In this document: one piece after another, positions 3 to 61,935 of the stretch
Layout: each line of letters starts with the position of its first letter
Position numbering within the stretch: position 1 is the stretch's first letter
NCBI RefSeq assembly: GCF_004698125.1
Contig: NZ_SRHV01000006.1
Location: 124,001-188,000, forward strand
Direction: 5' to 3'
Length of the DNA: 64,000 nucleotides
Origin: Halosimplex halophilum
GTDB taxonomy: Archaea; Halobacteriota; Halobacteria; Halobacteriales; Haloarculaceae
Translations under genes and position numbers: made by a program
Notes under the pieces: model-generated
What the model saw: only the letters and a program-made list of their open reading frames with translations
Told to the model about the DNA's origin: nothing
Database searches by the model: none

Positions 3-1082
3 ATCTACCAGACGGTCGGCGACACCGTCGGGCCGGGCGGCACCTTCCGTGCCCTGCGGTCGATCCCGCAGTACCGGGAGATCGCCGCGGCCGTCCGCGA
101 GCAGTGTCCCGACGCGTGGGTGTTCAACTTCACCAACCCGATGACCGTCTGCACGCGCACGCTCTACGAGGAGTACCCCGACATCAACGCCGTCGGGGTC
201 TGCCACGAGGTGTACCACGTCCAGGACTGGCTGACCGACCTCGCCGAGCGACACCTCGGGGTCGAGGGCGCGACCTACGACGAGGTGGACGTGACGGTCA
301 AGGGCATCAACCACTTCACCTGGATCGACGAGGCGCGCCTGCGGGGGACGGACCTCTTCGAGGCCGTCGACGCCGAACTCGCGGCGCGGGACCCGCCCGA
401 ATACGAGCCCGGGGACCCCGAGGTAGCCGACCAGAGCGTCTTCGCGACCAACCACGAGGTCACCTTCGACCTCTACCGCCGGTACGGGATCCTGCCGGCC
501 GCGGGGGACCGGCACCTCGCGGAGTTCGTCCCGTGGTATCTCGACCCCGTCGAGGCGCCCGAGGACATCCACCGCTGGGGGATCAGGCTCACGCCCAGCG
601 AGTACCGCGTCGAGTCCTGGCCCGAGGCCGAGCGCGAGCGCGAGGCGCTGCTGTCCGGCGACGAGCCCATCGACGTGGCCGCGCCGAACGAGGAGATGGT
701 CGACCTGATGGCCGCGCTGCTGGGCGGCGAGGCCGTCAAGTCCAACGTCAACGTCCCGAACCGCGGGCAGATCCCCGACCTCCGGGAGGGATGCGTCGTC
801 GAGACGAACGTTCTGTTCACCGAGGACTCGGTGACGCCGCTGACGGCCGGACCGCTCCCCGACCAGGTCCGCAGCCTCGTCGAGACCCACGTCACCAACC
901 AGGAGACGCTGATCGAGGCCGGCTTCGCCGGCGACCTGGACCTGGCGTTCCGGGCGTTCCGCAACGAGCCGCTCGTCACGCTGGACCCCGCCGAGATCGA
1001 GGCACTGTTCGCGGACCTCGTCGAGGCCGAACGGGAGTACCTCGACGCCTACGACATCGCGGGCGCCGACGTGCTCTCCTGA
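3..1082 (+). CDS. GH4-family glycosidase, 5' end outside window
   Basis: The reading frame is open from base 3, so the start and the N-terminal Rossmann motif lie before the window; 359 residues are visible. GH4 hallmarks are visible: GDTVGPGG, RALRSIP and NFTNPM near the beginning, then GVCHEV (the Cys that ligates Mn in this family) and GINHFTW (the family His). GH4 enzymes are cytoplasmic NAD- and Mn-dependent glycosidases acting by redox elimination; members cleave alpha-galactosides, alpha-glucosides, alpha-glucuronides or alpha-galacturonides. In this pectin-rich neighbourhood an alpha-galacturonidase or alpha-galactosidase is plausible, but substrate cannot be read from the sequence. 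No signal peptide can be judged because the N-terminus is missing. The esterase gene follows 117 bp downstream on the same strand. Confidence 0.88.
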   Translation: MYQTVGDTVGPGGTFRALRSIPQYREIAAAVREQCPDAWVFNFTNPMTVCTRTLYEEYPDINAVGVCHEVYHVQDWLTDLAERHLGVEGATYDEVDVTVKGINHFTWIDEARLRGTDLFEAVDAELAARDPPEYEPGDPEVADQSVFATNHEVTFDLYRRYGILPAAGDRHLAEFVPWYLDPVEAPEDIHRWGIRLTPSEYRVESWPEAEREREALLSGDEPIDVAAPNEEMVDLMAALLGGEAVKSNVNVPNRGQIPDLREGCVVETNVLFTEDSVTPLTAGPLPDQVRSLVETHVTNQETLIEAGFAGDLDLAFRAFRNEPLVTLDPAEIEALFADLVEAEREYLDAYDIAGADVLS

Positions 1083-1199
1083 TCCGGCCGTCCCGGTCGT
1101 CGGCGCTGGCCCGATTGTCGGTCCGGCCGGTCCCCGGTCGTTCCCGGCCGCACGCGCCGCGGTCAGTACATTGATGGCGACGCGCCGCGGGGTCGACGT

Positions 1200-2228
1200 A
1201 TGCAGGTCGACGGCATGCAGTTCCACAACGTCGGAGAGCTCCGGCCCCCGGACGACGACGGCGGGCGGCTGATCCAGCGCGTCCCCGAGTCGGTCAGGAC
1301 CGACCTCAACGAGGGGGCCCAGTCGCGGATGCGCCACCCCGCGGGCGTCGAACTCCGGTTCGTCCCCGACGGGCCGGTCGAGCTGACCCTCTCGATGGAG
1401 TCCGGCGGGAGCGCCGACAGCGGGACCGTCCGCGTGTTCTGGGGCCCGATCCAGGGCTACGACGAGTTCGAGATCGGGACGGAACCCACGACGATCGAGG
1501 TGGAGACGCCCGAGAAACTGACGCGGCTGAAACCGTCCGCGACCGAAGACCTCGCCCTCGACCCGCGGGTCTGTCGGGTCTGTCTCCCCGGTGAGCACCG
1601 CGGCGGCTACACGCTGTACCACGGGGCCAGCGGCGAATATCGGCCGCCGAACGACGACGAGCTGCCCGACCGCCGGTATCTCGCCTACGGCACGTCGATC
1701 ACCGAAGGGGAGGCGCCGCTGGGCGAGCACCTGACGTACGTGAACCGGACAGCGCGGCGACTCGGCGCCGACCTGGTCAACCTCGGCTCCTGCGGGACGG
1801 CCTACTGCGACGAGGCCATCGCCGACCACATCGCCGAGCGCGACGACTGGGACGTGGCGACGCTCTCGGTCTCGGTCAACATGGTCGGCACGTTCTCCCC
1901 GGAAGAGTTCCGCGAGCGCGCGGCGAACCTCGTCGACACCGTCGCGAGCGCCCACCCGGGCAAGCCGGTCGCGTGCATCACGATCTTCCGCTGCTCCCGG
2001 GACGTGGTCGAGGGCCACGAGGAGGCCGAGACGGTCGAGCGCTTCCGCGCGGAGCTCCGCGAGGTCGTCGCCGAGTCGCCACACGACAACGTCCACCTGC
2101 TGGAGGGGCCCGAGTTGCTCCCGAGCATCGACGGGCTCACGACGGACCTGGTCCACCCCGGCGACGGCGCGATGACGACGATGGCCGAACGCCTCGCGGC
2201 CGAACTCCGACCCCTGCTTGCGAACTGA
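1200..2228 (+). CDS. SGNH/GDSL hydrolase, probable carbohydrate esterase
   Basis: 342 residues without a signal peptide, so cytoplasmic. The N-terminal ~140 residues look like the beta-sandwich that precedes the catalytic domain in the Lipase_GDSL_3 group. The SGNH blocks are present: YGTSITEG with nucleophile Ser166, Gly196 in NLGSCG, Asn227 in SVNMVG, and the terminal D-x-x-H pair Asp316/His319 in DLVHPGD. Family members remove acetyl or other acyl groups from sugars. Sitting between a GH4 glycosidase and an IclR regulator, the likely task is deacetylation of imported pectin or hemicellulose fragments; the substrate is inferred. The ATG follows a short spacer after the GH4 gene. Confidence 0.85.
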   Translation: MQVDGMQFHNVGELRPPDDDGGRLIQRVPESVRTDLNEGAQSRMRHPAGVELRFVPDGPVELTLSMESGGSADSGTVRVFWGPIQGYDEFEIGTEPTTIEVETPEKLTRLKPSATEDLALDPRVCRVCLPGEHRGGYTLYHGASGEYRPPNDDELPDRRYLAYGTSITEGEAPLGEHLTYVNRTARRLGADLVNLGSCGTAYCDEAIADHIAERDDWDVATLSVSVNMVGTFSPEEFRERAANLVDTVASAHPGKPVACITIFRCSRDVVEGHEEAETVERFRAELREVVAESPHDNVHLLEGPELLPSIDGLTTDLVHPGDGAMTTMAERLAAELRPLLAN

Positions 2229-2284: not shown

Positions 2285-3058
2285 ATGGCAAACGCCGCGC
2301 GGAACGGGCCCGGACGCACGATCCGGTCGGTGGAGATAGCGTTCAATATCATCGACGTCCTCCAGGAGAAGGGCGGTGCGGGGGTGACGGAGCTGGCCGA
2401 CGAGCTCGACCACTCCAAGAGCACGATCCACAGCCACCTGCGGACGCTCGAGGACCGCGAGATCCTCGTCCGCGAGGGCGACGGCTACCGGCTGAGCCTC
2501 CGCATCCTCGACATGGCGACCCACGTCCGCGACCAGGTCGGGAACTACGACGTCATCAAGAGCGAGGTGGACACGCTCGCCGAGGAGACCGGCGAGATCG
2601 CCCAGTTCGGGATCGAGGAACACGGCAAGGTCTCGTACCTCTACAAGACGACCGGCGAGCGCGGGGTCGAGACGGCCTCGCGGGTCGGCACCCAGCAGCC
2701 GATGTACTCCACGTCGCTCGGCAAGACGATCCTCGCCTACCTCCCCGAGGAGCGCACCGAGGAGATCGTCCAGGCCCAGAGCTACGAGGAGCTGACGCCG
2801 ACGACCGTCACGAGCGCCGAGGAGCTGTACGAGGAGCTCGCGGAGATCCGCGAGCGCGGCTACGGCATCGACGACGAGGAGAACTTCGAGGGGCTGCGCT
2901 GCGTCGCCGCGCCGGTCAAAAACGAGGAGACCGTCCTGGGCGCCGTGAGCATCACCGGCCCGTCCAGCCGGTTCACCGTCGACCGCATCCACGACGAACT
3001 CTCCGACCAGGTGCAACGGGCCGCCAACGTCATCGAACTCAACACGAAGTTCGCGTAG
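2285..3058 (+). CDS. IclR-family transcriptional regulator
   Basis: 257 residues. Residues ~15-75 form the winged helix-turn-helix (AFNIIDVLQEKGGAGVTELA followed by HSKSTIHSHLRTLEDREIL), and residues ~85-255 form the IclR effector-binding domain (GERGVETASRVG, STSLGKTILAYLPE, GIDDEENFEGLRCVAAPV). IclR proteins bind a small metabolite and repress or activate nearby catabolic genes; the haloarchaeal pentose regulator XacR belongs to this family. It is the only classical DNA-binding regulator in the window, so it is the first candidate for controlling the pectin genes on either side. That role is inference. A longer overlapping frame beginning at 2275 is a shadow: the residues match the family only from this ATG. 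Confidence 0.93.
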   Translation: MANAARNGPGRTIRSVEIAFNIIDVLQEKGGAGVTELADELDHSKSTIHSHLRTLEDREILVREGDGYRLSLRILDMATHVRDQVGNYDVIKSEVDTLAEETGEIAQFGIEEHGKVSYLYKTTGERGVETASRVGTQQPMYSTSLGKTILAYLPEERTEEIVQAQSYEELTPTTVTSAEELYEELAEIRERGYGIDDEENFEGLRCVAAPVKNEETVLGAVSITGPSSRFTVDRIHDELSDQVQRAANVIELNTKFA

Positions 3059-3076: not shown

Positions 3077-5026
3077 CTACGCCCGGTCCCACGGGGCGGC
3101 GTACGTCGGGTCGTCGACGAACCGGTCCATCGCCGCCGAGACCGAGACGCGCGTCCCGCTCGGCAGCGCGACCCGGAGCGCGTCCGCTCCCGCACCGGTC
3201 CCCGGATCCGCGTCGCCCTCGGTGTCCGCGCCGCCCTCTGCTCCCGTCCCTGCGTCGGGTGCCTCGCCGTCCACTTCGACGGCGGTGAACTCGTGTTCGC
3301 CGTACGCGCCGGCCTGCGTGACCACTTCCTGGTCCCGGGGCCCGGTGTTGACGAGCGTCAGGTCGATCCCCTCCGAGTCGATCCGTTCGACGAGCGCGGC
3401 GACGCCCGCCGGGAGCCCGGGGCGCTCGCGGCCCGGGTCGAAGTGGCGGACCTGCGCCATCACCAGCCCGCCGTAGTAGACGGGCTGTGGCGCGCCCATC
3501 GTGAGGTTGAGCAGGCCGCGGTGGAAGACGGGGTTGCGGTCCCGCAGGTAGTCCTCGTTCAGCGTGTCGGGCTCGCGGCCCTCCTCGCGCATCCCGTCGA
3601 GTAGCTCCTGGGCGTGCGTGCGGTTCGCCTCCAGCACCCGCTCGGGGAACTCGGGGAACTCCCCCTCCAGGTAGGCGAGCCAGGGCCACTCGTTGCCGGC
3701 GCCGTGTTTCGACGAGGGGCGCACGTCGACCTGCTTCCACTCGCGGGAACCCCAGTCCCGGAGCCGTTCGACCCGCTCGCGGTCGGCCTCGTCCAGCGAC
3801 ATGTACCAGAGGTGGAACAGGTACGGGTCGTCGCGGTGGGGCTTGAACTCGTACCAGCCGTCGCGCCACAGGATCTCCCCGTCGTCCTCGCGCAGGCCCG
3901 AGCCGTTGTAGTGGTAGTCGCCCTCGCCGCCGTACTTGTGGGGGATGTAGAGCGTGTCGCCCCGCTCGATCCCCTCGTCGACGAGGTGGTCGAGCTGCCG
4001 GCGGTGGAAGTCGAGGTGGTCGCGGTCGCCCGTCAGGAGCGTGGCGTTCTCGGCGGCGGTCGTGGTGCCGACGCCGACGTAGTGCCAGCCGCCCCACGAC
4101 CAGCCGTACATGCCGCCCCACCACTTCCCGTCGGTGTACTCGCCGATCTCGTCGGAGAGGCCGACGTTGTCGGGGATGATCCCGTCGTTGCGGTCGACGC
4201 GGTCGCGCCAGGCCTCCAGGTACTCCGTGACCCACTCCCGGTAGTCGTCGTCGCCGGTGTGGAGGTAGGCGTTGGTCATCAGGCTGGAGATGGCGAGATT
4301 GAGGGGGACGTCCCCCTTCGAACAGCGCTCCTCGTAGACCTCGAACAGCCGCCCTTCGTTGTCCGGGTCCAGCAGTTCGGTCGCGTTGTCGAACTCCAGG
4401 TCCCGCCAGGGGAGGCCGTGGCTCGCCCAGCGGTAGTCGGCGCCGTAGCCGCCGAACGTCGACTGCGCGCCGAACGCCGAGAGGTCGCTGTACTCCGGGC
4501 CTGCGCTGCCGTTCATCGGCGCGCGGACGAGCCGTTGCTCGGCGTCGTAGTTGTCCAGGTCGCTGTCGGCGAGGTACATGTCGGCGAAGCGGGTCGCGCG
4601 CTCGACGACGAGGTCGTCGCCGGGCGCGGCCAGCCCCATGTTGTAGGTGAAGAGGTTGCCCTCGCCGAGGTGGAACCAGTCCCGACACTGCTCGAACTCG
4701 TCGACGACCATCGGGTGGCCGTGGGGCGTGTCCGTCCGCTCGAAGCGGGCCAGCGCCCCCTCGTAGGCGTCGCGGGCGCGGGTCAGCAGCGACTCGTCGC
4801 CGCCCATCGCGTAGACGAGCGGCCAGTTGTAGAAGCCCTCGATCACGTCGTCGTAGCCGTCGACGCCGACGTGGTCGTCGGGCGGCCAGTACGGTTCCCC
4901 GTTCTCGTCGAGGTAGTCGTCGACGAAGTCGTCGACCGCGCGCTCGAAGCAGTCGAACAGCGCCCGCTGGCGCGTCGCCCACTCGGGCGGCTGGGCGACC
5001 GAGCGACGCGCCGCTAGCTCGTACAT
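3077..5026 (-). CDS. Unknown-family protein, probable helical-toroid carbohydrate enzyme
   Basis: 649 residues, no signal peptide. I do not recognise the family. The sequence is rich in Trp, Tyr, His and acidic residues arranged in helical stretches, e.g. GFYNWPLVYAMGG, DWFHLGEGNLFTYNMG, KWWGGMYGWSWGGWHYVGVG and LYIPHKYGGEGDYHYNGSG, as seen in (alpha/alpha)6-7 toroid glycosidases and polysaccharide lyases. Residues ~560-630 hold a short beta-rich tail with an acidic Gly/Asp-rich insert. The chosen start is MYELAARR: the frame is open further upstream, but an AT-rich TATA-like TTCAATTG lies 25-30 nt before this ATG. It lies between the IclR gene and a secreted pectate lyase, so it is probably a cytoplasmic enzyme acting on pectin-derived oligomers. 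A role in uronic-acid oligomer cleavage is speculation. Confidence 0.75.
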   Translation of the reverse strand: MYELAARRSVAQPPEWATRQRALFDCFERAVDDFVDDYLDENGEPYWPPDDHVGVDGYDDVIEGFYNWPLVYAMGGDESLLTRARDAYEGALARFERTDTPHGHPMVVDEFEQCRDWFHLGEGNLFTYNMGLAAPGDDLVVERATRFADMYLADSDLDNYDAEQRLVRAPMNGSAGPEYSDLSAFGAQSTFGGYGADYRWASHGLPWRDLEFDNATELLDPDNEGRLFEVYEERCSKGDVPLNLAISSLMTNAYLHTGDDDYREWVTEYLEAWRDRVDRNDGIIPDNVGLSDEIGEYTDGKWWGGMYGWSWGGWHYVGVGTTTAAENATLLTGDRDHLDFHRRQLDHLVDEGIERGDTLYIPHKYGGEGDYHYNGSGLREDDGEILWRDGWYEFKPHRDDPYLFHLWYMSLDEADRERVERLRDWGSREWKQVDVRPSSKHGAGNEWPWLAYLEGEFPEFPERVLEANRTHAQELLDGMREEGREPDTLNEDYLRDRNPVFHRGLLNLTMGAPQPVYYGGLVMAQVRHFDPGRERPGLPAGVAALVERIDSEGIDLTLVNTGPRDQEVVTQAGAYGEHEFTAVEVDGEAPDAGTGAEGGADTEGDADPGTGAGADALRVALPSGTRVSVSAAMDRFVDDPTYAAPWDRA

Positions 5027-5210: not shown

Positions 5211-7367
5211 TCAGGGCGGACTGGCGTCCGGGTCCTCGACCGCCAGCGCCCACTGGTCGACCCACTCGCGCAGGCCGCTGTCCGGCACCGACAGCGAGCG
5301 GGTGTTCTCGGGCAGTTGCGGGTAGCCGCCGACCTCCTCGTGGTCGGCGATCCAGTAGTCGTACGGCGAGTCGGTGTACGGGTCGCCGGCGCGGTTCTCG
5401 ATCTCCGAGACGATCCGCGAGTCGTTGCTCGTCCGGTCCGCCGGGCGGGCGCCGGCGTAGCTCAGGTTGTGGCTCTCCACGTCGCCCGCGGGCATCGCGG
5501 AGAACCCGCTCGGCCACAGCGGCCGCGAGGACAGCTCCGAGGTGCCGCCGGTCAGCGGCGTCGACTCGGGGTCGGTCACGTTGTCCGCGAGGTAGGCGTT
5601 GCCGCCCTCGATGACGGTGTCGCCGAGGTCCTGCGGGGCGTAGACGTTGCCGACGATGGACGCCTCCGTGTCGTCGTCCATGTTCGTCGCCTCGTTGAAG
5701 AAGTACATCACGTTGTTGGCGACGGCGCTGCGCGTGCCGGACTTCAGTCGCGGGACGCGGCCGCGCGTCTTCGCCCAGACGTTGCCCAGCAGCGCGACGT
5801 TGTCGGCGCCGTCGCCGACCAGCGTCGCGTAGTTGTGGTCCGAGCCGTCGCCGTAGGGGTCGTACAGCCCCTCGTAGACCAGGCAGTTCGAGAGGGTCGT
5901 GTCGGTCGTGTCGTAGCCGACGGACATGCACTCGTCGACGCCCCACGACGCCGTGCAGTGGTCGAAGATGTTGTTCGTCGTCCCGTCGGCGCTGTTGATC
6001 GAGTCGTTGCCCTGAATCGACCCGCTGTCACCGGGCCCGACCCGCGAGCGGACGTGCTGGACGACGCAGTCGTTCGCGCTGACCTGGAACAGCCCCTGCG
6101 TGAGCGTGATCCCCGGCGAGGGCGCCGTCTGGCCGGCGATCCAGCAGCGGTCGTTCGTCACTTCGAGCGGGTCCCCGCCGAGGTCGATCGTCCCGCTGGT
6201 CTCGAAGACGACCAGCCGCGGGCCGCTCGCCTGCACGGCGTCTTCGAGCGCGCTCCGGGTCGCCTCCGTCACCCGGTGGACGGTGACGCCGTCGTCGAAC
6301 CACGAGGCGTCGGCGAAGCCGTCCTCGTAGTGGACGTACGACCCCTCCCCGGACGGGGTGGTGTCCCCGCCGTCGTCGCTCCCGGTCGTGAAGGTGTTCG
6401 TCGACCCGGTCGCGGTGTCGCCGTCGCTGGCAGCGGCGGTCGCGCGGAACTCGTAGTCCGTCCCGCCCGCGAGCCCTGAGACGGGCTCGCTGTAGCTCCC
6501 CGGCGACGACAGCGACTGTCCGGGCGTCGCCGTCCAGTCGCCGCCCGACTCGCGGTACTCGAAGGCCGCCTCGGCCGACGCGGCGCCGCCCAGGTCGTCC
6601 ACGCTCCCCGCGAGCGTCGCCGACGACGTGTCGACCTCGGACGCCGAGCCCGTCGAGACGACCGGGTCGGTGTCGCCGCCGGTGCCGCCGTCTCCCGAAT
6701 CCGTGGCGACGCTGCCCGCGACCTCCACGTCGCCGATGTCCCCGTTGCTGTCGGGGGAGAGCCCGGCGAGGTTCGAGAACTGCGCGGTCGTCAGCGTCCC
6801 CTGGTCGTGGCTACAGACGGCCAGCCCGACGTAGGCGCTCCCGGCGAAGTCGATCTCCCCCGGCGAGATGTCGGCGATGAGCGTCCAGTCGCTCCCGTCG
6901 GTCGACCCGTAGGCCTCGATGGTCTCGCCCGACCGGACGAGCCGCTGCCAGTCCGCCGCCAGCGTCCCGCCGGCGACCTCCGCCTCGTCGGTCCCGCCCG
7001 ACGTGGTGCTCTGTGCGTCCACGCCGTCGTCCGACCGCCACTGGACGGAGGTCTCGTGGCCGGGCGTCTTCCGGATCATCGCGTGCTCGGCGTCGTCGTT
7101 CAGCGTCTGCCTGACCATCAGGCCCGCGCGCGCCCAGTCGTCGGTGTCCGCCAGGCTGTCGACCCGGACGGTCACGTCGAAGTCGCCCTCGACCTCCGTG
7201 TAGTAGTAGTGGAACTCGTCGGTCGCCGACCAGATGTCGTAGCCCGCGCCCTCGACCGTTATCGTCGTCGCCCCCGCGACGCTGCCGGCCGCGCAGGTCG
7301 ACGCCAGTGCGCCTGTCGTCCCGAGCCCGAGGGCCCGGAGGAACGTGCGTCTATCGTGGTCTGTCAT
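5211..7367 (-). CDS. Secreted pectate lyase with beta-sandwich and FN3-like modules
   Basis: 718 residues. The N-terminus DRRTFLRALGLG is a Tat signal; no clear lipobox follows. Residues ~33-185 form a DUF1349-like beta-sandwich (YDIWSATDEFHYYYTEVEGD, RAGLMVRQ, GLAVCSHD), probably carbohydrate-binding. Residues ~205-320 resemble a fibronectin type III fold, and ~330-715 are a right-handed beta-helix pectate lyase. Lyase signatures include WIAGQTAPSPGITLTQG, FDHCTASWGVDE and GRVPRLKSG, whose Arg-x-Pro-Arg matches the catalytic Arg region of PL1-type lyases. The enzyme should cleave de-esterified homogalacturonan outside the cell by beta-elimination. The ATG of MTDHDRRT is preferred over one eight codons upstream because it begins the Tat signal. 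The gene at 32813 has the same three-part layout. Confidence 0.88.
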   Translation of the reverse strand: MTDHDRRTFLRALGLGTTGALASTCAAGSVAGATTITVEGAGYDIWSATDEFHYYYTEVEGDFDVTVRVDSLADTDDWARAGLMVRQTLNDDAEHAMIRKTPGHETSVQWRSDDGVDAQSTTSGGTDEAEVAGGTLAADWQRLVRSGETIEAYGSTDGSDWTLIADISPGEIDFAGSAYVGLAVCSHDQGTLTTAQFSNLAGLSPDSNGDIGDVEVAGSVATDSGDGGTGGDTDPVVSTGSASEVDTSSATLAGSVDDLGGAASAEAAFEYRESGGDWTATPGQSLSSPGSYSEPVSGLAGGTDYEFRATAAASDGDTATGSTNTFTTGSDDGGDTTPSGEGSYVHYEDGFADASWFDDGVTVHRVTEATRSALEDAVQASGPRLVVFETSGTIDLGGDPLEVTNDRCWIAGQTAPSPGITLTQGLFQVSANDCVVQHVRSRVGPGDSGSIQGNDSINSADGTTNNIFDHCTASWGVDECMSVGYDTTDTTLSNCLVYEGLYDPYGDGSDHNYATLVGDGADNVALLGNVWAKTRGRVPRLKSGTRSAVANNVMYFFNEATNMDDDTEASIVGNVYAPQDLGDTVIEGGNAYLADNVTDPESTPLTGGTSELSSRPLWPSGFSAMPAGDVESHNLSYAGARPADRTSNDSRIVSEIENRAGDPYTDSPYDYWIADHEEVGGYPQLPENTRSLSVPDSGLREWVDQWALAVEDPDASPP

Positions 7368-7558: not shown

Positions 7559-8278
7559 TCAGTCCTCGCGGTTCGCGGGTTCGACCTCGCCCCAGACGGC
7601 GTCGCTGCCCTCGGTGGGCGCCGCCCACCCGACGGCGTTGGCGATGACCCGCTGGACCTCGTCCTGGTAGAGGATCGGGTACTCCTCGTGACCGGGACGG
7701 AACGCGAAGATCCGGCCGCGACCGCGCCGGTAGCACAGCCCCGACCGGAACACCTCGCCGCCCTCGAACCACGAGATGAACACCGTCCGGTCGGGTTCGG
7801 GCACGTCGTAGGGCTCGCCGTACATCTCCGTCGCGGGGATCTCGAACGACTCGGGGAGGCCGTCGGCGATGGGATGGCCGGGGTCGGCGACCCAGACCCG
7901 CTCGGTCTCGCCGCCGTGGCGGTACTTGATGTTACACGTGGTCCCCATCAGCCGTTTAAATGGCTTGGAGTTCTTCCCGGAGTGCAGCGGGACGAAGCCC
8001 ATGCCCTCGTGGACGCGGTCGACCACGCGGTCCGCGACCTCGTCGCTCAGCTCGTCGTTGGCGCAGTGGGACCACCAGACCAGCACGTCCGTCTCCGCGA
8101 GCACGGTCTCGGGGAGCCCGTGTTCGGGTTCGTCGAGCGTGGCCGTGCGCGTCTCGAAGCCGCGCTCGGAGAGCGCGTCGGCGACGGCCCCGTGGATGCC
8201 GTCCGGGTACCGCTCGGCGACCGCCGGCTCCTCGCGCTCGTGGACGTTCTCGTTCCAGACGGTGACCTGTAGCGTCAT
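7559..8278 (-). CDS. ThuA-like domain protein
   Basis: 239 residues, no signal peptide. It matches the ThuA family (class-I glutamine-amidotransferase-like flavodoxin fold): [10 protein letters not shown] at the start, [34 protein letters not shown], then [19 protein letters not shown] at the end. ThuA was named for trehalose utilisation in rhizobia, and members recur in bacterial and archaeal sugar-degradation clusters, often near Gfo/Idh oxidoreductases; their biochemical role is not well established. Three Gfo/Idh genes occur elsewhere in this window. It lies on the same strand as the pectate lyase gene that follows, 191 bp on. Function here is undetermined beyond sugar catabolism by association. 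Confidence 0.88.
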
Positions 8279-9369: not shown

Positions 9370-10617
9370 ATGGACATCGCCAGCGTCGACAGCTACGCGC
9401 TCTCGTCACCGATCGACCCGCCGCAGGACCGGCGGTTCCACGGCGGGACCCGCCGGCTGCTGAAGCGGGACGTGGTCCTCGTCGTCGTCGAGACGGCCGA
9501 CGGCCGACAGGGGTTCGCGACCGCCGGCGCGAGCAGCTCCGCGATGACGGAGTACTTCGAGGGCGACTCGCAGGGCACCTTCGCCGACATCGTGACGGGA
9601 CCGGTCGCCGACGCGCTCGAAGGCGAGCGGATCGAGGCGATCCCCGAGGCCCACGATCTGATCCGCGAGGGGTCGGTCCCGGCGGGCGACGTGACCGAGG
9701 CCATCTCGGCGGTCGACGTGGCGCTGTGGGACCTCCGCGGGAAGGAACACGGCGTCCCGGTCTACGAGCTGCTCGCTGAGGAGTACGGCACCGACCCGAC
9801 GCTCGAACTCCCCCTCTACGCCAGCGCCGGGATGTACATGGAACCGGAGGGCTTCGCCGACCAGGCGGAGCTCATCGAGGATCTGGGCTTCTTCGGCTAC
9901 AAGTACCGCCCCGGGATCGGTCCCGACGGCGACCGCCGGACGGTCGAGTTGCTCGCCGACCGGCTGACCGAGACCGAGTTCATGCTCGACGTGCACACGT
10001 GGTGGAAACTCGGCGAAGCGTACGGACGGGAGACGGTGCGCGACCTGATCGCCCACGCCGGCGAGCGCGGCGCCTGCTGGGTCGAGGAGCCGGTCGAACC
10101 GGACGACCACGAGGGGTACGTGGAACTGGCCGAGACGGGCGCGCCGCTGGCCGGCGGCGAGAGCGAGGAGACGCCCGAGGGCCTCGTCGAACTCGGGGAG
10201 ACCGGCGCCGTCTCGTTCCTCCAGGGCGACGTGCGCCACCACGAGGGGTTCACCGGCTGTCGGGCCGCCGTCGAGTTCTGCGCCGGTCGTGACGACGTCG
10301 AGTTCGTCCCGCACAACTTCGGGACGTGGATCGGCCTCGCCGCCAACGCCCACCTCGTCGCCGCCGCCCCGGACACCCGGCTGCTGGAGTATCCCGTCTT
10401 CGAGGACGACCCCGCGCTGGCCGACGTGGACGGCGACCCCGGGATGTACCCCTTCGACCTCGCGTTCGACCTGATCGAGGGCCAGCCCGACATCGACGAC
10501 GGCGTCCTCTCGGTGCCCGAGGGTCCCGGCCTGGGTATCGAGGTCGACCTCGACGTCGTCGAGGAGTACCCGTTCGTCGACGGGCCGTGGACCGAGTTCC
10601 ACTACGACGACGAGTAG
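9370..10617 (+). CDS. Enolase-superfamily (MR/MLE) sugar-acid dehydratase
   Basis: 415 residues, cytoplasmic. Family signatures: AVDVALWDLRGKEHGVPVYE in the capping/barrel junction, the general-base segment YKYRPG (Lys178), and metal ligands Asp207 (MLDVHTWW), a Glu in WVEEPVEPDD (239/240) and Glu264 (AGGESEE), followed by PHNFGTWIG near the end of the barrel. Enzymes of this group abstract the proton alpha to a carboxylate, most often dehydrating aldonates or aldarates to 2-keto-3-deoxy acids. It stands opposite a DHDPS-family gene that would use such a product. The exact acid (galactarate, glucarate, xylonate, rhamnonate) is not determinable from sequence. The start follows AT-rich DNA with a TTTAAG box about 28 nt upstream. 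Confidence 0.88.
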   Translation: MDIASVDSYALSSPIDPPQDRRFHGGTRRLLKRDVVLVVVETADGRQGFATAGASSSAMTEYFEGDSQGTFADIVTGPVADALEGERIEAIPEAHDLIREGSVPAGDVTEAISAVDVALWDLRGKEHGVPVYELLAEEYGTDPTLELPLYASAGMYMEPEGFADQAELIEDLGFFGYKYRPGIGPDGDRRTVELLADRLTETEFMLDVHTWWKLGEAYGRETVRDLIAHAGERGACWVEEPVEPDDHEGYVELAETGAPLAGGESEETPEGLVELGETGAVSFLQGDVRHHEGFTGCRAAVEFCAGRDDVEFVPHNFGTWIGLAANAHLVAAAPDTRLLEYPVFEDDPALADVDGDPGMYPFDLAFDLIEGQPDIDDGVLSVPEGPGLGIEVDLDVVEEYPFVDGPWTEFHYDDE

Positions 10618-15691: not shown

Positions 15692-16126
15692 CTACCGCTC
15701 GGTCAACTGCGAGACGTTGTGCTGGCCGGGTTCCCGCGTCAGCGACAGCCCCTCGAACTTCCGGATCGTGAACTCCCCGAGGACGTTCACCTCGCAGCCC
15801 TCCTCCAGGTGGCCGCCGACGGTCCGCTCCCCGTTGAACGCCGTCACGTGGAGATGCGGTTCCCCGTCGGCGATAGCGCCGCCGATATTCGTGACCTCCC
15901 ACGACCCTTCGAGTTCGAGGTCGACGTTTCGGGCGGCCTGCTCGTCGGGCAGGTCGGTCCGGTCGACGTAGTGGATGTTGAGGTTGCTGAACGTGCCGAT
16001 CCCCGACACCACCGCGCCGGTGTCCACGTCGTGGGCCTCGCAGGCCGCCTCGATCGATTCCAGCGCCATGTCGCCGCGGTCCAGACGGACGACTACGTGT
16101 CCGTCGTCGGATTCGAACGATTCCAT
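15692..16126 (-). CDS. PPC/DUF296 (PCC) domain protein
   Basis: 144 residues. The whole protein fits the PPC domain (DUF296): VRLDRGDMALESIEAACEAH, GAVVSGIGTFSNLNIHY, HLHVTAFNGERTVGGHLEEG and the closing beta strand. In plants this domain sits beside AT-hooks; stand-alone prokaryotic versions form trimers of unknown activity and are often called DNA-binding without proof. The metal- or ligand-pocket histidines HLHV and GGHL are present. A TATA-like TTTTATTC lies about 28 nt before the ATG. It is transcribed towards the small membrane protein gene and follows the lactonase gene by 80 bp in the opposite reading order, with its own promoter. Confidence 0.85.
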   Translation of the reverse strand: MESFESDDGHVVVRLDRGDMALESIEAACEAHDVDTGAVVSGIGTFSNLNIHYVDRTDLPDEQAARNVDLELEGSWEVTNIGGAIADGEPHLHVTAFNGERTVGGHLEEGCEVNVLGEFTIRKFEGLSLTREPGQHNVSQLTER

Positions 16127-22861: not shown

Positions 22862-22906
22862 CGGTCGGTCCCTCCCGTGGTGTGTAGTTGTCGTAGCTGC
22901 ATCGTA

Positions 22907-46146: not shown

Positions 46147-46321
46147 TGCGTCGTCACTGAATGGTTATCAGAACCTCAATAACATTTCGGTCACAGCGGG
46201 TGAGCACGTCCGCCGGGTCGGATATCGCCGGCCGACCCCCGGTCGCTCCGGACTCGCCGAGCGCTCGCGGACGGTATCCGTGACCGATACTTTGATGTGT
46301 CGTCTTAGAGCAATGCCGATC

Positions 46322-53003: not shown

Positions 53004-55133
53004 ATGCGAGACAGTGACAACGGAAGCGGGCGGAGCGTATCACGTCGCCGGTACGCGCAGATACTGGCCGGAATGGGCGTCGCCGGGCTGGCGGGCTGTC
53101 CGAGCGGCGGCGGGGACGGGACGCCGACCAGCGGCGGGGGCGGGGACACCGACACGCCCGGGGGCGACGGCGAGGACGACGAAGCGACGCCCACGTCGGC
53201 CGACGAGACCGCCACGGCGCGCGAACCGGCGACGGACACGCTGTCGTACGCCGTGTTGAACTCGCCGAGCGTGTTCGACTGGAACGCCTGGACGCCCCAG
53301 GACAACGCGGCGGGCGACGAGATGATGAAGGAGCTGACGGGGCTCCGGAACGTCCACACGCGGGAAGTCCACATGAGCGGCGTGACGCTGCCGGCGCCGC
53401 ACAAGCCCGACCGGGAGGAGATCGAGGTCATGACCTGGTTCGAGAGCCAGGAGGTCGAGCCGCCGTTCGACTGGTGGCACGACCTCGACGACCGGGCGCG
53501 GTTCTGGAACGGCGACCCCTACGACGCGGTCACCCGGGAGAAACACGACCACGTGAACTTCTTCCAGGCCGGGAACAAGTTCACCGAGGGCGCGACGTTC
53601 AATTCCGAGGCCGAGTCTCAGTGGCGGTACCACGGCTGGTTCGACAAGGGCGAGGTCCCCGAACAGGATCCCAGCCCGCAGGCCCGCCAGGTCATCGCGG
53701 CCGCGGCCTACGAGCTGCAGCTCTCGGCGATGATGCACCCCGACTTCACGGACCCGTACATCGAGCGCTATCAGGACGCGGGCAACGCCGACCAGAGCCA
53801 GTCGATCACCGACGACCTGCAGAGCGACCGGATCCCGCTCCAGGAGCTCGCCGTCGAGGAGGGCAACGGCTGGGGCTCGGGGATGTACGTCCTCGAGACC
53901 ATGGACGACGTGGGGTCGGAGAGCATGATACTCCACAAGGACGAGGACCACCCCAACGCCGACAACACCAACGTCGAGAAGCTGGAGATCCTGTGGGCAT
54001 CCGGCGACCGCCTGCAGACGCTCCAGACCAACGGCGCGGTCGACTTCAACGCCGGCGCGGTCACGCCCAGCGGGTCGATGAACCGCGAGACGCTCCCGGA
54101 CCACATGCAGGAGGTGACCCGCTTCCTCGACGCGGTCGCGGGCCACGTCTGGAAGCTCAACATGCGCGACGAACACCTCCAGAACCTCTGGGTGCGCCGC
54201 GCGCTGGTCGAGGCCATCGACTGGGAAGCCGTCGCCGCCAACGGCTGGGGCGAGGAGTCGTCGATCGTCACCGAACACGACACGTTCCTGCTGGACGCCC
54301 AGTCCGAGAGCACGTTCTCCGACGAGTTCCTCGACCAGCTGCACACCTACTCCCGCGAGCAGAACCTCGAAAACGCCAACGAGTACATGCGGCGGGCGGG
54401 CTACAGCAAGGAGGGCGACCAGTGGGTCGACCCGTCGGGCAACCCCGCCGAGATCGACCTGATGCAACACTCCGGCGGGACGGGCTACGTCCAGGGCTGT
54501 CAGACGGTCCGGGCGAACCTCGCCAACTGGGGCTTCGGCGTCAACTTCAGCACGGTGAACTACTCGACGTGGTCGAACAACATGGACCCCAACAGCGGGC
54601 TCAACTACGACTCGACCATCTTCTGGGCCGGGACGAACAACGTCTTCGGCTACTACACCGACCGCGGCGCGTGGTGGGGCGAGACGCTGCTGGGCGGCAG
54701 TCCCACCGCCGAGTCGCCCTACCGGCTCACCGAGGACGACGACTACGACACCCAGGGCCGGCCCGTCCACTGCGAGATCCCCAGCGAGGTCGGCTCCATC
54801 GAGGCGCCCGACCAGGCCGGGCTCGAACCGGACCTGGAGAACGGCGAGGAGGTCGACATGTTCGAGGTCGTCCAGAAGATCCAGCAGCCGGGCAACTCCG
54901 AGGAGGAACTCATGGAGCTGTACCGCACCTGCGCCCGGTGGTACAACTTCTACCTCCCGAACTTCGTGTTCCGCCAGGGGCTCTCCGGCGCCTGGGGCAA
55001 CGTCCGGGACTTCGACTGGCCCCCCGCTGACAACAGGGCGCTGGACTTCAAGCGCGCCGGGGTCGTCGACGCCTCCGTCCTCGGCGGCGTGACCCAGGCC
55101 AGCTACGACACCGAGTTCCAGCCGCCGGAGTGA
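53004..55133 (+). CDS. Orphan ABC substrate-binding lipoprotein (SBP_bac_5 type)
   Basis: 709 residues. Tat motif SRRRYAQILAG and lipobox LAGC, then a Gly/Asp/Thr linker to ~residue 70 and a family-5 binding domain (RNVHTREVHMSGVTLPAPHK, FWNGDPYDAVTREKHDHVNF, LWVRRALVEAIDWEAVAANG, GYVQGCQTVRANLANWGFGV). It is distantly like the binding protein at 24429. No permease or ATPase gene follows; it lies 80 bp after the GH10-type gene on the same strand, so it probably captures the products of that protein and may share the permeases of the 19.5-23.9 kb importer. Substrate is inferred only. Confidence 0.87.
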   Translation: MRDSDNGSGRSVSRRRYAQILAGMGVAGLAGCPSGGGDGTPTSGGGGDTDTPGGDGEDDEATPTSADETATAREPATDTLSYAVLNSPSVFDWNAWTPQDNAAGDEMMKELTGLRNVHTREVHMSGVTLPAPHKPDREEIEVMTWFESQEVEPPFDWWHDLDDRARFWNGDPYDAVTREKHDHVNFFQAGNKFTEGATFNSEAESQWRYHGWFDKGEVPEQDPSPQARQVIAAAAYELQLSAMMHPDFTDPYIERYQDAGNADQSQSITDDLQSDRIPLQELAVEEGNGWGSGMYVLETMDDVGSESMILHKDEDHPNADNTNVEKLEILWASGDRLQTLQTNGAVDFNAGAVTPSGSMNRETLPDHMQEVTRFLDAVAGHVWKLNMRDEHLQNLWVRRALVEAIDWEAVAANGWGEESSIVTEHDTFLLDAQSESTFSDEFLDQLHTYSREQNLENANEYMRRAGYSKEGDQWVDPSGNPAEIDLMQHSGGTGYVQGCQTVRANLANWGFGVNFSTVNYSTWSNNMDPNSGLNYDSTIFWAGTNNVFGYYTDRGAWWGETLLGGSPTAESPYRLTEDDDYDTQGRPVHCEIPSEVGSIEAPDQAGLEPDLENGEEVDMFEVVQKIQQPGNSEEELMELYRTCARWYNFYLPNFVFRQGLSGAWGNVRDFDWPPADNRALDFKRAGVVDASVLGGVTQASYDTEFQPPE

Positions 55134-58575: not shown

Positions 58576-61500
58576 TCAGACCACCGTGAACTCGTAGGTC
58601 CCGGCGCCGACCTCGACCAGGAGGTCGCCGTCGTCGCGGGCGGTTTCGGTCACGCCCTCGGGAAGCGATCCGTCCACGGGCGAGCCCGACTCGCGAACGG
58701 TCGCGTCGGCGGCGTCGGGGAGTCGAACCGTCGCCGTCCCGTTCCAGGGGACGGTCACCGACAGCGAGTAGCCGTCGTCGGTGCGCTCCCACGCGCTCGC
58801 GAGATCGCCGTTAGGCGTCTCGACGCTGGCCTCCGCCCAGTCGAGGTCGTCGACGAGCGCCGGGGCGATCTCGACGTGGGCGGTCACGGGCTCGTCGCCG
58901 ATCCGGATCCCCGCGAGCACCTCGTAGAAGAACTCCGAGACGTGGGTGAACGGCGAGTGGTTGAGCGAGTTCATCCCGGAGCCGACGGCTTCGTCGGAGT
59001 CCCACCGCTCCCACATCGTCGTCGCGCCCTGCCGGGCCATGTACACCCAGCCCGGCCGCTCGGGCTGGCTGACGACCTCGTAGGCCACGTCGGCGTAGCC
59101 GTGAGCGGCGAGCGTGTGGATCAGCGGCCGCGTGCCGAGGAACCCAGTCCGGAGTTTGCCACCGTCCGAGCGTACTTTTTCGGCGAGGTTGGCGGCGACG
59201 CGGTCGACCTCCTCGTCGGGGACCAGCCCCAGAAAGAGCGGGACGGCAAAGGACGACTGCGTGCCGGGGCCGAACTCGCCCGCGTCGGCGTCGAAGAAGC
59301 GGTCGCGGAACGCCGCCGCGACATCGTCGGCCCGGTCGCGGTAGCGCTCGGCGTCCGCGTCGTTGCCGAGGACGCCGGCGACCTTCGCGAACGTCTCGGT
59401 CACCTGGTAGAGGAACGCGGTGTTGAACAGGTCGTGAGGGAGGCCGCGCCGGGGTTCCTCGGGGTCGGTGTTCTCGAAGGCGAGCCAGTCGCCGTACTTG
59501 CCGTACTCGCCGGGGAGGACCCCGTCCTCGGCGACCGAGAGCCAGTAGTCGACGTAGTCGCCCATTCCCTCGTAGTGCTCGCGCAGGATCCCCAGATCGC
59601 CGTCGTGGCGGTAGCAGTACCACGGGAGCATCACGCGGGTGACCGACCACGTCGGGTCGGCGGGGTCCTCCGGCGACTTGTCCGGGATCACGTCGGGGAC
59701 GTAGCCCATCTCGGAGGCGGCGTCGGCGTGGTCGCGCTGCCACTTCTCCTCGAAGCGGACGGCGTCGAAGTTGAAGAGGAGCGCCCGCGTGGATATCTGG
59801 GCGTCGCCCGTCCAGCCGAACCGCTCGTCGCGCTGGGGGCAGTCCTCCGGGATCCCGTGGGTGTTGCCCCGCAGGCCCCAGACGGCGTTGTGCTGGACCG
59901 CCGAGAGGTCGTCGTTCGAGCAGTCGAAGCTCCCGCGGCGGTCCATCGCCGTGTGGACGACCTTCGCGGTCACGTCCTCGGGGCTCAGTTCGCCCGGGTA
60001 CCCGGATATCTGCGCGTAGCGGAACCCGTGGTAGGTAAACCGGGGTTCGTAGGTCTCGCGGTCGTCGCCACGGGCGAGGTAGGTGTCGGTCGCGTCGGCG
60101 CTGCGGAGGTCGGTCGTCGAGAGGTCGCCCGCGTCGGTCAGCGCCTCGGCGTGGCGGACCGTGACCTCGTCGCCGGCGTCGGCGCCCTCGACCGCGAATT
60201 CGACCCAGCCGGTGAGGTTCTGCCCGAAGTCGAGGATCGGTCCCTCGGGGTGGTCGCGGACGGCCTCGGGCTCGAACGTCTCGACGACGCGCATCGACTC
60301 GACGCGCTGGGGGCGCAGCGTGCCGCCCGCCGCGTCGACGACGGCCGCGGAGTCCCAGTCTGCGTCGGGGTCCCCGGCGCTGGAGTCGCCGTCTCCGTCG
60401 TCGCCGTCCGCCCCCGGGGCGGCCCAGCCTGGTCGTTCGCGCCGGGCATCGTAGACCTCCCCGTCGTAGATGTCGTTTTCGACGATCGGGCTCTCCGCCG
60501 CCGCCCAGTCCGGTCCGGTCGCGATCCGGCGGGTCCGTCCGTCAGCGAACTCGACGGTGAGCACCGCGCGGGCGCGGGGCGACCCGTCGGCCAGCCAGTG
60601 GGCGCTGCGCTTGGCGAACCAGCCGCGGCCGAGCCAGATCCCGAGCGCGTTTTTCCCCGCTTTCAGCCGGTCGGTCAGGTCGTGAGTCGCGTAGGTGACG
60701 CGGGACTCGTAGTCGGTCCAGACGGGGTCGAGCCGGCGGTCGCCGACGCGGTCGCCGTTGCAGTACAGCTCGCCGTAGCCGACGGCGGCGACGTGGACCC
60801 GCGCCGCGCCGACCTCGCCGTCGAGGTCGAACTCCCGGCGGAGCAGCGGCGACGCCGCGGCCATCCGCGACTCGGTGACGCCGTTCACGAGGTGCTCGCG
60901 TCCCCAGGTATCGGTCTCGACGCTCGACGAGGCGGCCACGTCGCCGCCGCGGGCGAGGTCGGTCCCGTCGAACCCCTCGACGGTGAGCCCGGCCAGGGCG
61001 AAACAGGCCCACTCGTCGTGGGACTCGACGCGTCGGTCGGGCCCGTCGGCGGAGGACGGGTCCCCGGAGGCGGGCGTCACGGTGGGAAGGTCGGTCGCGG
61101 TGACGCGGACGTACCGGCCGCGGGCGTCACCGGCGTCGTGGGTCCGTGTGCGGACCGCCCGCTCCGGCTGGCCGTCGGTCGACCCGGCGTCGGCGACCGA
61201 GTCGGTCGATACCTCGGCGACCGTCGTCGCCGCGTCGAAGTCGGGGTCGTCGGCGACTTCGACGCGATAGCCCTCAGGGAAGCCGAACGCGGCGAGCGGG
61301 TCGTCGTCCCACGATGTCGTGACCGCGTAGTCGTCGGGCGTCCGGACGACCGTGACCGGGTCGGCCGGGTGGAGTTCGATCTCGGCGATGTCCCGTCGCT
61401 CCCCGAGGTCGACCCGGACCCACGGGTCGTCACGGTCGCCCACATCGTCGGCGTCGCCGGCCGCGCTCGGGTCGGCAGTCGCGTCCGGATCCCGCCACCG

Positions 61501-61935
61501 GCTGCGCCAGCCGTCCGTGTCGCCCTCGCCGGGCTGGTGGGTGATCCACTCGCCGCGCCAGTCCTCGGGGGCCAGCGCCGTCGCGAACTCCGCGGGGTCG
61601 GCCCACGGCGTCTCGCCCGCGTCGGTCCACAGCCTCACCGACCAGTAGTAGGTCGCGTCCGCGGCGAGGTCGGGACCGCCGTAGGCGACGCTCGTCGCGC
61701 GCTCCGAGTCGACCCGCCCGGAGTCCCACAGGTCGCCGCGACCGGCCGCGACCCGCTCGCGGTCGCGCCCGACCACGACCCGGTAGGCGGTCTGGTGCGC
61801 GCCGCGCCGTTCGGTCGCGATACGCCAGCCGAATCGGGGTGTGTCCGTCGGGTCGACGTTGCCCGGCGCCCGTTCGTACTCGACGGCCAGGGCCGTCGGC
61901 GCCGGCGAGCTCCGGTCGTCCGCTGTGTCGTTCAT
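58576..61935 (-). CDS. GH78 alpha-L-rhamnosidase, cytoplasmic
   Basis: 1119 residues, no signal peptide. Domain order of bacterial GH78: N-terminal FN3-like (TPRFGWRIATERRGAHQTAY, TYYWSVRLWTDAGETPWADP), a beta-sandwich (AAVGYGELYCNGDRVGDRRL, WTDYESRVTYATHDL), the Bac_rhamnosid segment (GFRYAQISGYPGEL), then the (alpha/alpha)6 catalytic domain. The signature GIPEDCPQRDERFGWTGDAQ is near residue 700 and holds the catalytic Glu and Asp; the C-terminal beta domain follows. An extra discoidin-like stretch with acidic insertions interrupts the N-terminal half (~residues 125-300), lengthening the protein beyond usual members. It should release L-rhamnose from rhamnogalacturonan oligomers. A TATA box CTTTACG lies ~28 nt before the ATG, which rejects the longer open frame. 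Confidence 0.92.
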   Translation of the reverse strand: MNDTADDRSSPAPTALAVEYERAPGNVDPTDTPRFGWRIATERRGAHQTAYRVVVGRDRERVAAGRGDLWDSGRVDSERATSVAYGGPDLAADATYYWSVRLWTDAGETPWADPAEFATALAPEDWRGEWITHQPGEGDTDGWRSRWRDPDATADPSAAGDADDVGDRDDPWVRVDLGERRDIAEIELHPADPVTVVRTPDDYAVTTSWDDDPLAAFGFPEGYRVEVADDPDFDAATTVAEVSTDSVADAGSTDGQPERAVRTRTHDAGDARGRYVRVTATDLPTVTPASGDPSSADGPDRRVESHDEWACFALAGLTVEGFDGTDLARGGDVAASSSVETDTWGREHLVNGVTESRMAAASPLLRREFDLDGEVGAARVHVAAVGYGELYCNGDRVGDRRLDPVWTDYESRVTYATHDLTDRLKAGKNALGIWLGRGWFAKRSAHWLADGSPRARAVLTVEFADGRTRRIATGPDWAAAESPIVENDIYDGEVYDARRERPGWAAPGADGDDGDGDSSAGDPDADWDSAAVVDAAGGTLRPQRVESMRVVETFEPEAVRDHPEGPILDFGQNLTGWVEFAVEGADAGDEVTVRHAEALTDAGDLSTTDLRSADATDTYLARGDDRETYEPRFTYHGFRYAQISGYPGELSPEDVTAKVVHTAMDRRGSFDCSNDDLSAVQHNAVWGLRGNTHGIPEDCPQRDERFGWTGDAQISTRALLFNFDAVRFEEKWQRDHADAASEMGYVPDVIPDKSPEDPADPTWSVTRVMLPWYCYRHDGDLGILREHYEGMGDYVDYWLSVAEDGVLPGEYGKYGDWLAFENTDPEEPRRGLPHDLFNTAFLYQVTETFAKVAGVLGNDADAERYRDRADDVAAAFRDRFFDADAGEFGPGTQSSFAVPLFLGLVPDEEVDRVAANLAEKVRSDGGKLRTGFLGTRPLIHTLAAHGYADVAYEVVSQPERPGWVYMARQGATTMWERWDSDEAVGSGMNSLNHSPFTHVSEFFYEVLAGIRIGDEPVTAHVEIAPALVDDLDWAEASVETPNGDLASAWERTDDGYSLSVTVPWNGTATVRLPDAADATVRESGSPVDGSLPEGVTETARDDGDLLVEVGAGTYEFTVV

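Follow-up and report, generated by a model that had tools for sequence, protein, structure and literature searches.

Whether haloarchaea use pectin, and with which genes, is the question raised by a 64,000-nucleotide stretch of Halosimplex halophilum DNA (the window), which covers bases 124001–188000 of the 268,102-base contig 4 in a 4.47-Mb genome of 7 contigs that is 99.87% complete. A first-pass annotation had described the window as a complete-looking pectin utilisation island of ~60 kb; its observation is confirmed here and its interpretation is partly supported. Judged from sequence, the left ~47 kb probably represents a haloarchaeal gene set for homogalacturonan use. As a recurring set of genes it is real, although its kind is already known, and it may serve growth on pectin. 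The most interesting parts for specialist follow-up are two genes that the annotation had not mentioned, one encoding a 649-residue protein of no known family (the orphan) and one encoding a nickel-pincer-nucleotide isomerase of LarA superfamily group 22.

Recurrence of the gene set

Genes of the window were called by codon usage and their products were scanned with Pfam and NCBIfam against the cut-offs of these databases (Table 1). The pectate-lyase-like, GH28 and CE8 genes are clustered in the window, and CE8 is present in 45 of 391 Halobacteria genomes at E 0.001, 30 of these exceeding 200 bits. Neighbourhoods of 40 kb around CE8 (27 kb in genome G342) were compared in 17 of the 30, together with three places around the isomerase; in the CE8 places a window gene was counted at an identity of at least 45% and a coverage of at least 50%. 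In the gene-order comparison across haloarchaeal genomes, which the first-pass annotation had proposed, the set recurs in six of the 17 CE8 places, with 14 (G376), 8 (G342), 6 (G121), 16 (G118), 17 (G231) and 11 (G359) further window genes, counted as distinct genes (6–18 when counted as matches). The 12 stretches that make up these six islands hold 2–9 window-like genes each; of 20 controls, each a 20-kb stretch drawn from these genomes, 16 have no such gene and four have a single one. GH28, CE8 and a pectate-lyase-like gene occur together in four of the six islands (G376, G121, G118 and G231), and the gene set is spread over three families (f1, f3 and f4). Gene order is reshuffled among the places, so that the unit is a gene set and not a fixed operon. 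The nearest named loci are those of Halosimplex, at 83–86% identity for the orphan and 94–95% for the IclR regulator.

The right part of the window behaves differently. GH51, GH10 and GH78 lie 11, 13 and 21 kb from CE8; neither GH51 nor GH10 has a match within ~20 kb of CE8 in the six islands, GH78 has one in a single island (66%), as does the second binding protein (29%). CE8-centred places were used for this comparison, as the three glycosidase genes lie more than 40 kb from the orphan in the window and their absence within 10 kb of the orphan elsewhere would be no fair test. On the left, the four flanking genes scanned are of isopropylmalate-dehydrogenase type, metallo-beta-lactamase type (two) and HpcH/HpaI type, and another ABC system lies alongside. 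With flanking genes of other families on the left and, on the right, GH51 and GH10 unmatched and GH78 matched once in the six islands, the gene set is read as spanning ~1–47.4 kb.

The predicted route

All three lyase-like proteins match the PelZ model NF041900 (E 2e-51, 3e-83 and 7e-64 for 5211–7367, 26608–27990 and 32813–35035), and the solved pectate lyase 9buj matches both of the proteins searched against structures, the first (E 7e-14) and the second (E 1e-22). Inspection by eye reveals a twin-arginine-like N-terminal stretch in each of the three, and a lipobox-like cysteine is clear in the second and third, so that the lyase-like proteins appear secreted and mostly lipoprotein-like; by eye, GH28 and CE8 have no visible signal sequence at their starts, and GH4 likewise has no visible export signal. 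The remaining families named in the first-pass annotation were all recovered with Pfam and NCBIfam, namely GH4, GH28, CE8, GH51, a GH10 match of 105.7 bits, GH78, IclR, two esterases (GDSL-type and abhydrolase/AXE1-like), the double ATPase and two permeases of one ABC importer, and two solute-binding proteins of family 5. To be added or corrected are four enolase-superfamily genes, two DHDPS-family genes, a uronate-dehydrogenase-like short-chain dehydrogenase/reductase (SDR), a glycerate-kinase-like gene and a galactonate dehydratase gene, as well as the orphan and the isomerase. The best match of the SDR among solved structures is 3ay3, named an NAD-dependent epimerase/dehydratase, followed in rows 2–4 by named uronate dehydrogenases (6mfh, 7.8e-20; 3rft; 3rfx); the Azf model gives 175 bits, below its cut-off of 400.

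On these assignments, the lyases would cut pectate at the cell surface and the oligomers would be imported, to be de-esterified by CE8 thereafter. GH28 and GH4, the latter of which we take to be a candidate alpha-galacturonidase, would together with the orphan release monomers or unsaturated uronate; galacturonate would then be oxidised to an aldarolactone and dehydrated towards 2-oxoglutarate semialdehyde. This resembles the bacterial oxidative galacturonate pathway in the SDR close to solved uronate dehydrogenases and in the KdgD-like genes, and differs from it in that the KdgD-like proteins stay below cut-off and the aldarate dehydratase step would fall to a divergent enolase-superfamily protein. 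The uronate branch had been called wholly oxidative, which does not fit the galactonate-dehydratase, UxuA-like, FAH-like and glycerate-kinase-like genes of the same window; these, with the nickel isomerase and Gfo/Idh proteins, would form a second branch, probably for other pectic sugar acids.

Pectin or another polymer

The pectate-lyase, polygalacturonase-type and pectin-methylesterase genes of Haloterrigena turkmenica (cluster Htur_4783–4790) were reported in 2011 (PMC3102087), so an archaeal pectin locus is not the little-described kind for which it had been taken. The H. turkmenica plasmid pHTUR02 shares with the window pectate lyases, GH28, GH4, IclR, a PGF-CTERM protein, a DUF1349 protein and an orphan homologue (70%) within ~18 kb, and has a CE8 match at 18838–19728, ~19 kb away from GH28 when the distance is taken through the start of the record; the window differs in also holding CE8, the uronate-dehydrogenase-like and KdgD-like genes, the ABC importer and the nickel isomerase in one stretch. 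PGF-CTERM proteins thus appear in that cluster and, as a 51% homologue of the window's DUF7282/PGF-CTERM protein, in the G376 island. The orphan is not mentioned in the available text of PMC3102087, and a full-text search for Htur_4783, Htur_4784, Htur_4785 and the protein accession returned that article only, whose available text has neither Htur_4784 nor the accession. Haloarchaeal glycosaminoglycan loci (PMC13260240) are likewise islands resembling polysaccharide utilisation loci with a lyase, an ABC importer and downstream uronate enzymes, but for another polymer; GH88 and GH154 are named there, whereas the genome of the window has no GH88/105 match, and the isolates described grew on glycosaminoglycans, not on pectin.

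Several observations weigh against homogalacturonan use as the function of the gene set. Neither pectin nor polygalacturonate nor rhamnogalacturonan supported growth of lyase-bearing isolates, including AArc-m2, AArc-m3 and AArc-m4 (PMC9726719); a 22-kb locus of these strains carries the orphan, GH28, the binding protein and ABC genes, that is, part of the island. PMC12343721 describes evidence as lacking and growth of strain A-rgal3 in liquid on pectin or galacturonate as marginal or absent. No demonstration of a haloarchaeon growing on pectin as carbon source was found among the top-listed open-licence papers, a minority of which were read; no pectinase was detected in 22 archaeal isolates (PMC7760675), and a review cites screens with pectinase-producing haloarchaea (PMC10102575).

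Within the sequences, the lyase-like proteins reach 175, 280 and 216 bits against the PelZ equivalog cut-off of 840. The two DHDPS-family proteins are nearest to KdgD and yet short of its cut-off of 373.95 bits (Table 1), as they are with the KdgD subfamily model (148 and 168 against 278). A search of the whole genome gave no match to GH88/105 or KduI and a sub-threshold match only to PL22; these families do not explain the fate of unsaturated ends, if the lyase-like proteins make them, for which the orphan is one candidate. No 2-oxoglutarate-semialdehyde dehydrogenase was identified in the window, the only part of the genome searched for one. A palindrome scan of 35 upstream regions gave no convincing shared IclR operator: the top counts of 10, 5 and 3 (half-sites of 5, 6 and 7) exceed the maxima of 8, 4 and 2 in 30 base-shuffles, but no operator is claimed because the leading motifs are rich in G+C, divergent gene pairs are counted twice and base-shuffles ignore dinucleotides. 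The other 11 CE8 places hold two further window genes (two places), one (one place) or none (eight places), and in G183, G242, G287 and G040 the orphan and GH28 lie on a different contig from the listed CE8; CE8 is a loose member of the gene set. UDH is found in four of the six CE8 islands but near the orphan in four of 23 loci, and fucose-type genes accompany two of five bacterial orphan homologues.

The gene set might instead serve another galacturonate or uronic polymer, such as rhamnogalacturonan, plant gums or a microbial exopolysaccharide, with pectin incidental. The failure of isolates with such genes on pectin (PMC9726719, PMC12343721) would agree with this, as would the picking of A-rgal3 from rhamnogalacturonan plates (PMC12343721). 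GH10, GH51 and GH78 nearby in the window and the fucose-type genes beside orphan homologues in two actinobacterial records point the same way. Against it, four of the six islands combine GH28 and CE8 with a pectate-lyase-like gene, and CE8 enzymes as a family act on methyl-galacturonate. Another polymer is considered unlikely, and homogalacturonan use remains the probable function.

What had been claimed of the window therefore holds in part. The three Tat-exported pectate lyases stand as PelZ-like proteins with twin-arginine-like starts, all far below the PelZ cut-off, and two of the three (26608 and 32813) are lipoprotein-like. A complete ~60-kb unit is not supported, GH51 and GH10 being in none of the six islands and GH78 in one, and GH88/105, PL22 and KduI giving no match over cut-off in the genome. 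Joint function in pectin or galacturonate use is favoured by the gene families and their recurrence across genera; haloarchaea carrying genes of this type grew on pectin marginally or not at all (PMC9726719, PMC12343721).

The unclassified 649-residue protein

The orphan has no Pfam, NCBIfam or meaningful PDB-sequence match; four members of its family have no Pfam match at E 1, and none of nine members scanned exceeds a Pfam cut-off. A contig scan with four orphan sequences gave 23 loci (it relies on conserved peptides of short length, and a plasmid search later confirmed that remote homologues escape it), all haloarchaeal and two of them from metagenome-assembled genomes. Within 10 kb, and at an identity of at least 45%, the neighbours in these loci are DHDPS1 (13), GH4 (13), IclR (12), EnoA (12), Gfo1 (12), EnoD (10), GH28 (8), PLc (7), PLa (4), UDH (4) and CE8 (2). 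The commonest neighbour of all is the ThuA-family gene, in 14 of the 23. In three Halosimplex loci (L103, L104 and L121) the PLa protein is matched more than once next to the orphan, compared with one gene in the window.

Near-full-length orphan genes are present in 29 of the 391 Halobacteria genomes, in 14 genera (32 genomes at E 0.001, three with fragments only). All 29 have GH28 at more than 100 bits, compared with five of the other 362 (Fisher 5e-39, which ignores shared ancestry); this threshold was chosen after seeing a gap from 129.6 to 90.8 bits, and at E 0.001 GH28 occurs in 51 genomes. Orphan and GH28 share a contig in 26 of the 29 genomes, and are at most 50 kb apart in 25 of these 26. 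CE8 is found in 22 of the 29, and GH88/105 at more than 140 bits in 18; these counts leave out the orphan fragments (G144, G164 and G271) as well as the weaker matches to GH28, CE8 and GH88. A search for PL2 covered 35 genomes, namely G144, the five with GH28 alone and the 29 with the orphan; PL2 exceeds its cut-off in six of the 29 and four of the five (Fisher 0.019), but not in G144; among the six, the G376 copy has an internal stop and the G357 copy is in two pieces. Broken orphan copies with stop codons lie at G144:C4 and G164:C63, which suggests that some lineages have lost the gene set.

The plasmid search found orphan homologues in 12 haloarchaeal and five bacterial records, the latter at 27–37% identity (Nonomuraea, two Streptomyces, Asticcacaulis and Sphingobium). 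Three of the five bacterial homologues lie near a DHDPS-family gene. The Asticcacaulis homologue follows a major facilitator superfamily (MFS) gene, which in turn has kdgD and a cupin gene next to it, with a galactonate dehydratase gene 5.5 kb further on; in Sphingobium, an MFS gene precedes the homologue and the DHDPS-family gene is 2.5 kb on. Nonomuraea has DHDPS- and enolase-superfamily genes at 5–6 kb and a GH29 fucosidase gene at 2 kb, one Streptomyces has genes related to those for fuconolactonase and rhamnose mutarotase, with scores below cut-offs, and the other Streptomyces has RraA-type and aldo/keto-reductase genes. The Asticcacaulis cupin was considered as KdgF and rejected, as it gave generic cupin matches only. 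These contexts place the orphan family, as far as gene neighbourhoods tell, in sugar-acid loci of archaea and bacteria, and its substrate need not be galacturonate everywhere.

Residues invariant over 14 orphan sequences include D56, D59, D60, E63, D116, H119, E122, D239, N243, R527, D530, E577 and H578. The predicted fold is likely an (alpha/alpha) barrel followed by a C-terminal beta-sandwich, although the full-length AlphaFold model is of low confidence (pLDDT 54.9, pTM 0.53; 47.3 for a domain-only model). With this model, the best Foldseek matches are GH127, GH76 and related barrels, none at E <0.001, and the best VIA-align match is 4mu9 (Z 10.9, rmsd 5.9, 284 aligned), a Z that a common helical arrangement can reach; the top VIA-align matches are a putative glycosyl hydrolase and a GH76 structure, closely followed by AGE epimerases. 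PL2 structures are not among the 50 structure matches listed, which is uninformative. Homology to GH88/105 was rejected (no PF07470 match; hhalign probability 4.2 and 1.7%), as was homology to PL2 (no PF06917 match; 3.0 and 2.4%). A general rule by which the orphan excludes or replaces GH105 was also rejected: strong GH88/105 genes beside it in 18 of 29 genomes mean that it is no simple GH88/105 substitute.

It is quite conceivable, if slightly short of an even case, that the orphan is an (alpha/alpha)-barrel glycoside hydrolase or lyase that processes (unsaturated) oligogalacturonides, in place of or alongside PL2 or GH105. The invariable presence of GH28 with the orphan argues for this role, as do the association of GH28 with PL2 where the orphan is missing (with two of the six PL2 genes in orphan genomes interrupted or split), the resemblance of the low-confidence model to GH127, GH76, AGE epimerases and unsaturated glucuronyl hydrolases, and the Asticcacaulis homologue, which lies beside a transporter gene and has a Tat-like start (Pfam TAT_signal E 0.054) that is absent in nine archaeal rows of the alignment. 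The weakness of the model, the absence of profile similarity to PL2 or GH88/105 and the co-occurrence with GH88/105 speak against it. An isomerase or epimerase of the uronate or aldarate pool, rather than a glycosidase, is improbable: AGE-family matches tie with GH76 in VIA-align, the gene is tied to DHDPS- and enolase-superfamily genes, and the Asticcacaulis homologue has a sub-threshold match to the C-terminus of D-glucuronyl C5-epimerase (E 0.072, 28 residues), but the model is the same weak one, the C5-epimerase match is at chance level and an exported homologue is less expected for a monomer isomerase. It is also conceivable, though somewhat less likely than not, that the orphan represents a cross-domain family of sugar-acid enzymes without a Pfam entry. 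In haloarchaea it would then perform a dedicated step of homogalacturonan breakdown next to GH28, either releasing or converting oligogalacturonides, and the archaeal route would thereby differ from the bacterial one through GH105, PL22 and KduI.

The nickel-pincer isomerase

The isomerase exceeds the curated cut-off of NF052515, a model found in 179 of the 391 Halobacteria genomes and, among 14 control genomes, in Haloferax volcanii only. PF01969 and TIGR00268, which we take to be the cofactor-synthesis families LarC and LarE, are over cut-off in the genome of the window. No PDB sequence matches the isomerase, with either a single sequence or a profile. R75, H107, H173, K186 and H202 are invariant in 22 sequences; those other than the two histidines H107 and H173 are presumably equivalents of LarA cofactor or catalytic residues. 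H107 and H173 would correspond to H108 and H174 of LarA (PMC12611868), an equivalence read off positions. Group 22 differs from the assayed groups in being absent from Table 1 of PMC7583248, and it was not found by term in the available text of PMC11770544. A uronate link has been suggested for another LarA-superfamily group (PMC7583248).

Apart from the isomerase of the window itself, the 60 highest-scoring matches were compared over up to 13 kb around each. The 22 of window type (at least 65%) have within 4 kb Gfo/Idh (12), GH28 (8, seven of them in one genus, g34), FAH (3) and GlyK (1), and eight have no window gene at that distance; the other 38 have enolase-superfamily (19), FAH (16) and IclR (10) genes. 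Four plasmid contexts opened by hand, from 25 matches listed, all have a DUF4147 gene within 1.5 kb, with FAH in two and GH88 in one. In Halomicrobium urmianum (L215) a window-type isomerase gene directly adjoins a GH88 gene and a DUF4147 gene.

The chemistry of the LarA superfamily would predict inversion of a 2-hydroxy acid by this enzyme, the substrate being an aldonate or else the L-glycerate or L-lactate from a diketo-acid hydrolase. On stereochemical grounds, L-galactonate degraded through a diketo acid would yield pyruvate and L-glycerate, and the latter would have to be inverted before a D-glycerate kinase could use it. That the isomerase is a racemase for the 2-hydroxy acid from the FAH-family hydrolase (L-glycerate to D-glycerate for glycerate kinase, or lactate) is possible but rather doubtful. 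In the window the three genes concerned (glycerate-kinase-like, FAH and isomerase) fall within 5 kb, the DUF4147 and FAH genes of the hand-opened plasmids fit, and LarA homologues racemise glycerate; they also epimerise aldonates (PMC11770544). However, GlyK and FAH are rare neighbours of window-type isomerases among the 60 best matches, Gfo/Idh and GH28 (largely in one genus) being the commonest, and a racemase is kept as an alternative only, because GlyK is near just one of the 22 despite DUF4147 in all four plasmid contexts.

Other features of the window

Scans for tRNA genes and Rfam families in the window were empty. Between the second binding protein and an Mrr-type nuclease gene (57022–58383), which PADLOC matches weakly to models of candidate defence systems and of type IV restriction, ~1.9 kb (55134–57021) holds no convincing gene by codon usage.

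Table 1. Features of the window, with coordinates in the window, strand and basis of assignment
Feature	Coordinates	Strand	Basis or remark
GH4 glycosidase, 5' end cut by window	3..1082	+	PF11975 5.6e-44, PF02056 4.6e-27; start upstream of window (L002:19658)
GDSL-type esterase	1200..2228	+	Pfam/NCBIfam
IclR-family regulator	2285..3058	+	PF01614 1.2e-40
Unclassified 649-residue protein (orphan), no visible signal sequence	3077..5026	-	no family; homologues in haloarchaea and bacteria
Tat-type secreted pectate-lyase-like protein, N-terminal DUF1349-like region (below Pfam cut-off)	5211..7367	-	
ThuA-family protein, recurrent in island	7559..8278	-	14/23 orphan loci
Enolase-superfamily protein EnoA	9370..10617	+	
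KdgD-like DHDPS-family protein 1	10776..11708	-	125 bits vs KdgD cut-off 374
KdgD-like DHDPS-family protein 2	11778..12710	-	140 bits vs 374
Enolase-superfamily protein EnoD, start estimated	12885..14024	+	
Uronate-dehydrogenase-like SDR	14116..14955	+	PDB sequence matches
PCC-domain protein	15692..16126	-	
7-bladed lactonase, candidate aldarolactone lactonase	16205..17290	-	
Enolase-superfamily protein EnoB	17287..18420	-	
Oligosaccharide/dipeptide-type ABC importer	19462..26360	-	ATPase pair 19462-21690; permeases 21692-22861, 22907-23911; binding protein 24429-26360
Lipoprotein-like pectate-lyase-like protein	26608..27990	+	
DUF7282 protein with PGF-CTERM motif	28202..30793	-	homologue in G376 island, 51%
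Gfo/Idh/MocA oxidoreductase 1	30986..32032	-	in 12/23 orphan loci
Lipoprotein-like pectate-lyase-like protein with DUF1349-like region (below Pfam cut-off)	32813..35035	+	
GH28, no visible signal sequence	35137..36669	-	PF00295 3.4e-47
CE8 pectinesterase, no visible signal sequence	36707..37633	-	PF01095 3.4e-78
Galactonate dehydratase (EnoC)	37679..38851	-	NF010624 485.5 bits vs cut-off 311
Abhydrolase/AXE1-like esterase	38912..40000	-	
Glycerate 2-kinase-like protein	40110..41438	+	DUF4147/MOFRL over Pfam cut-offs; NCBIfam 263 vs 550 bits
Mannonate-dehydratase (UxuA)-like protein	41460..42506	-	
FAH-family relative of 2,4-didehydro-3-deoxy-L-rhamnonate hydrolase	42628..43473	-	210 vs cut-off 500 bits
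Nickel-pincer-nucleotide isomerase, LarA superfamily group 22	43591..44958	+	NF052515 498.4 vs 400 bits
Gfo/Idh/MocA oxidoreductase 2, adjoins nickel isomerase elsewhere too	45001..46146	-	
Gfo/Idh/MocA oxidoreductase 3	46313..47428	+	
GH51 arabinofuranosidase	48247..49728	+	not found with core in the six islands
GH10 protein	50695..52923	+	not found with core in the six islands
Second family-5 binding protein	53004..55133	+	
GH78 rhamnosidase	58576..61935	-	match in 1/6 island places, 66%

Implications

The recurrent gene set and its marker protein yield candidate strains and gene deletions through which the use of pectin by haloarchaea could be settled. The genomic context of the window gives LarA group 22 a set of candidate substrates. 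The orphan family, unmatched in the Pfam and PDB sequences searched, also stands beside sugar-acid genes in bacteria, and its activity would mean an additional step of carbohydrate metabolism in archaea and bacteria alike.

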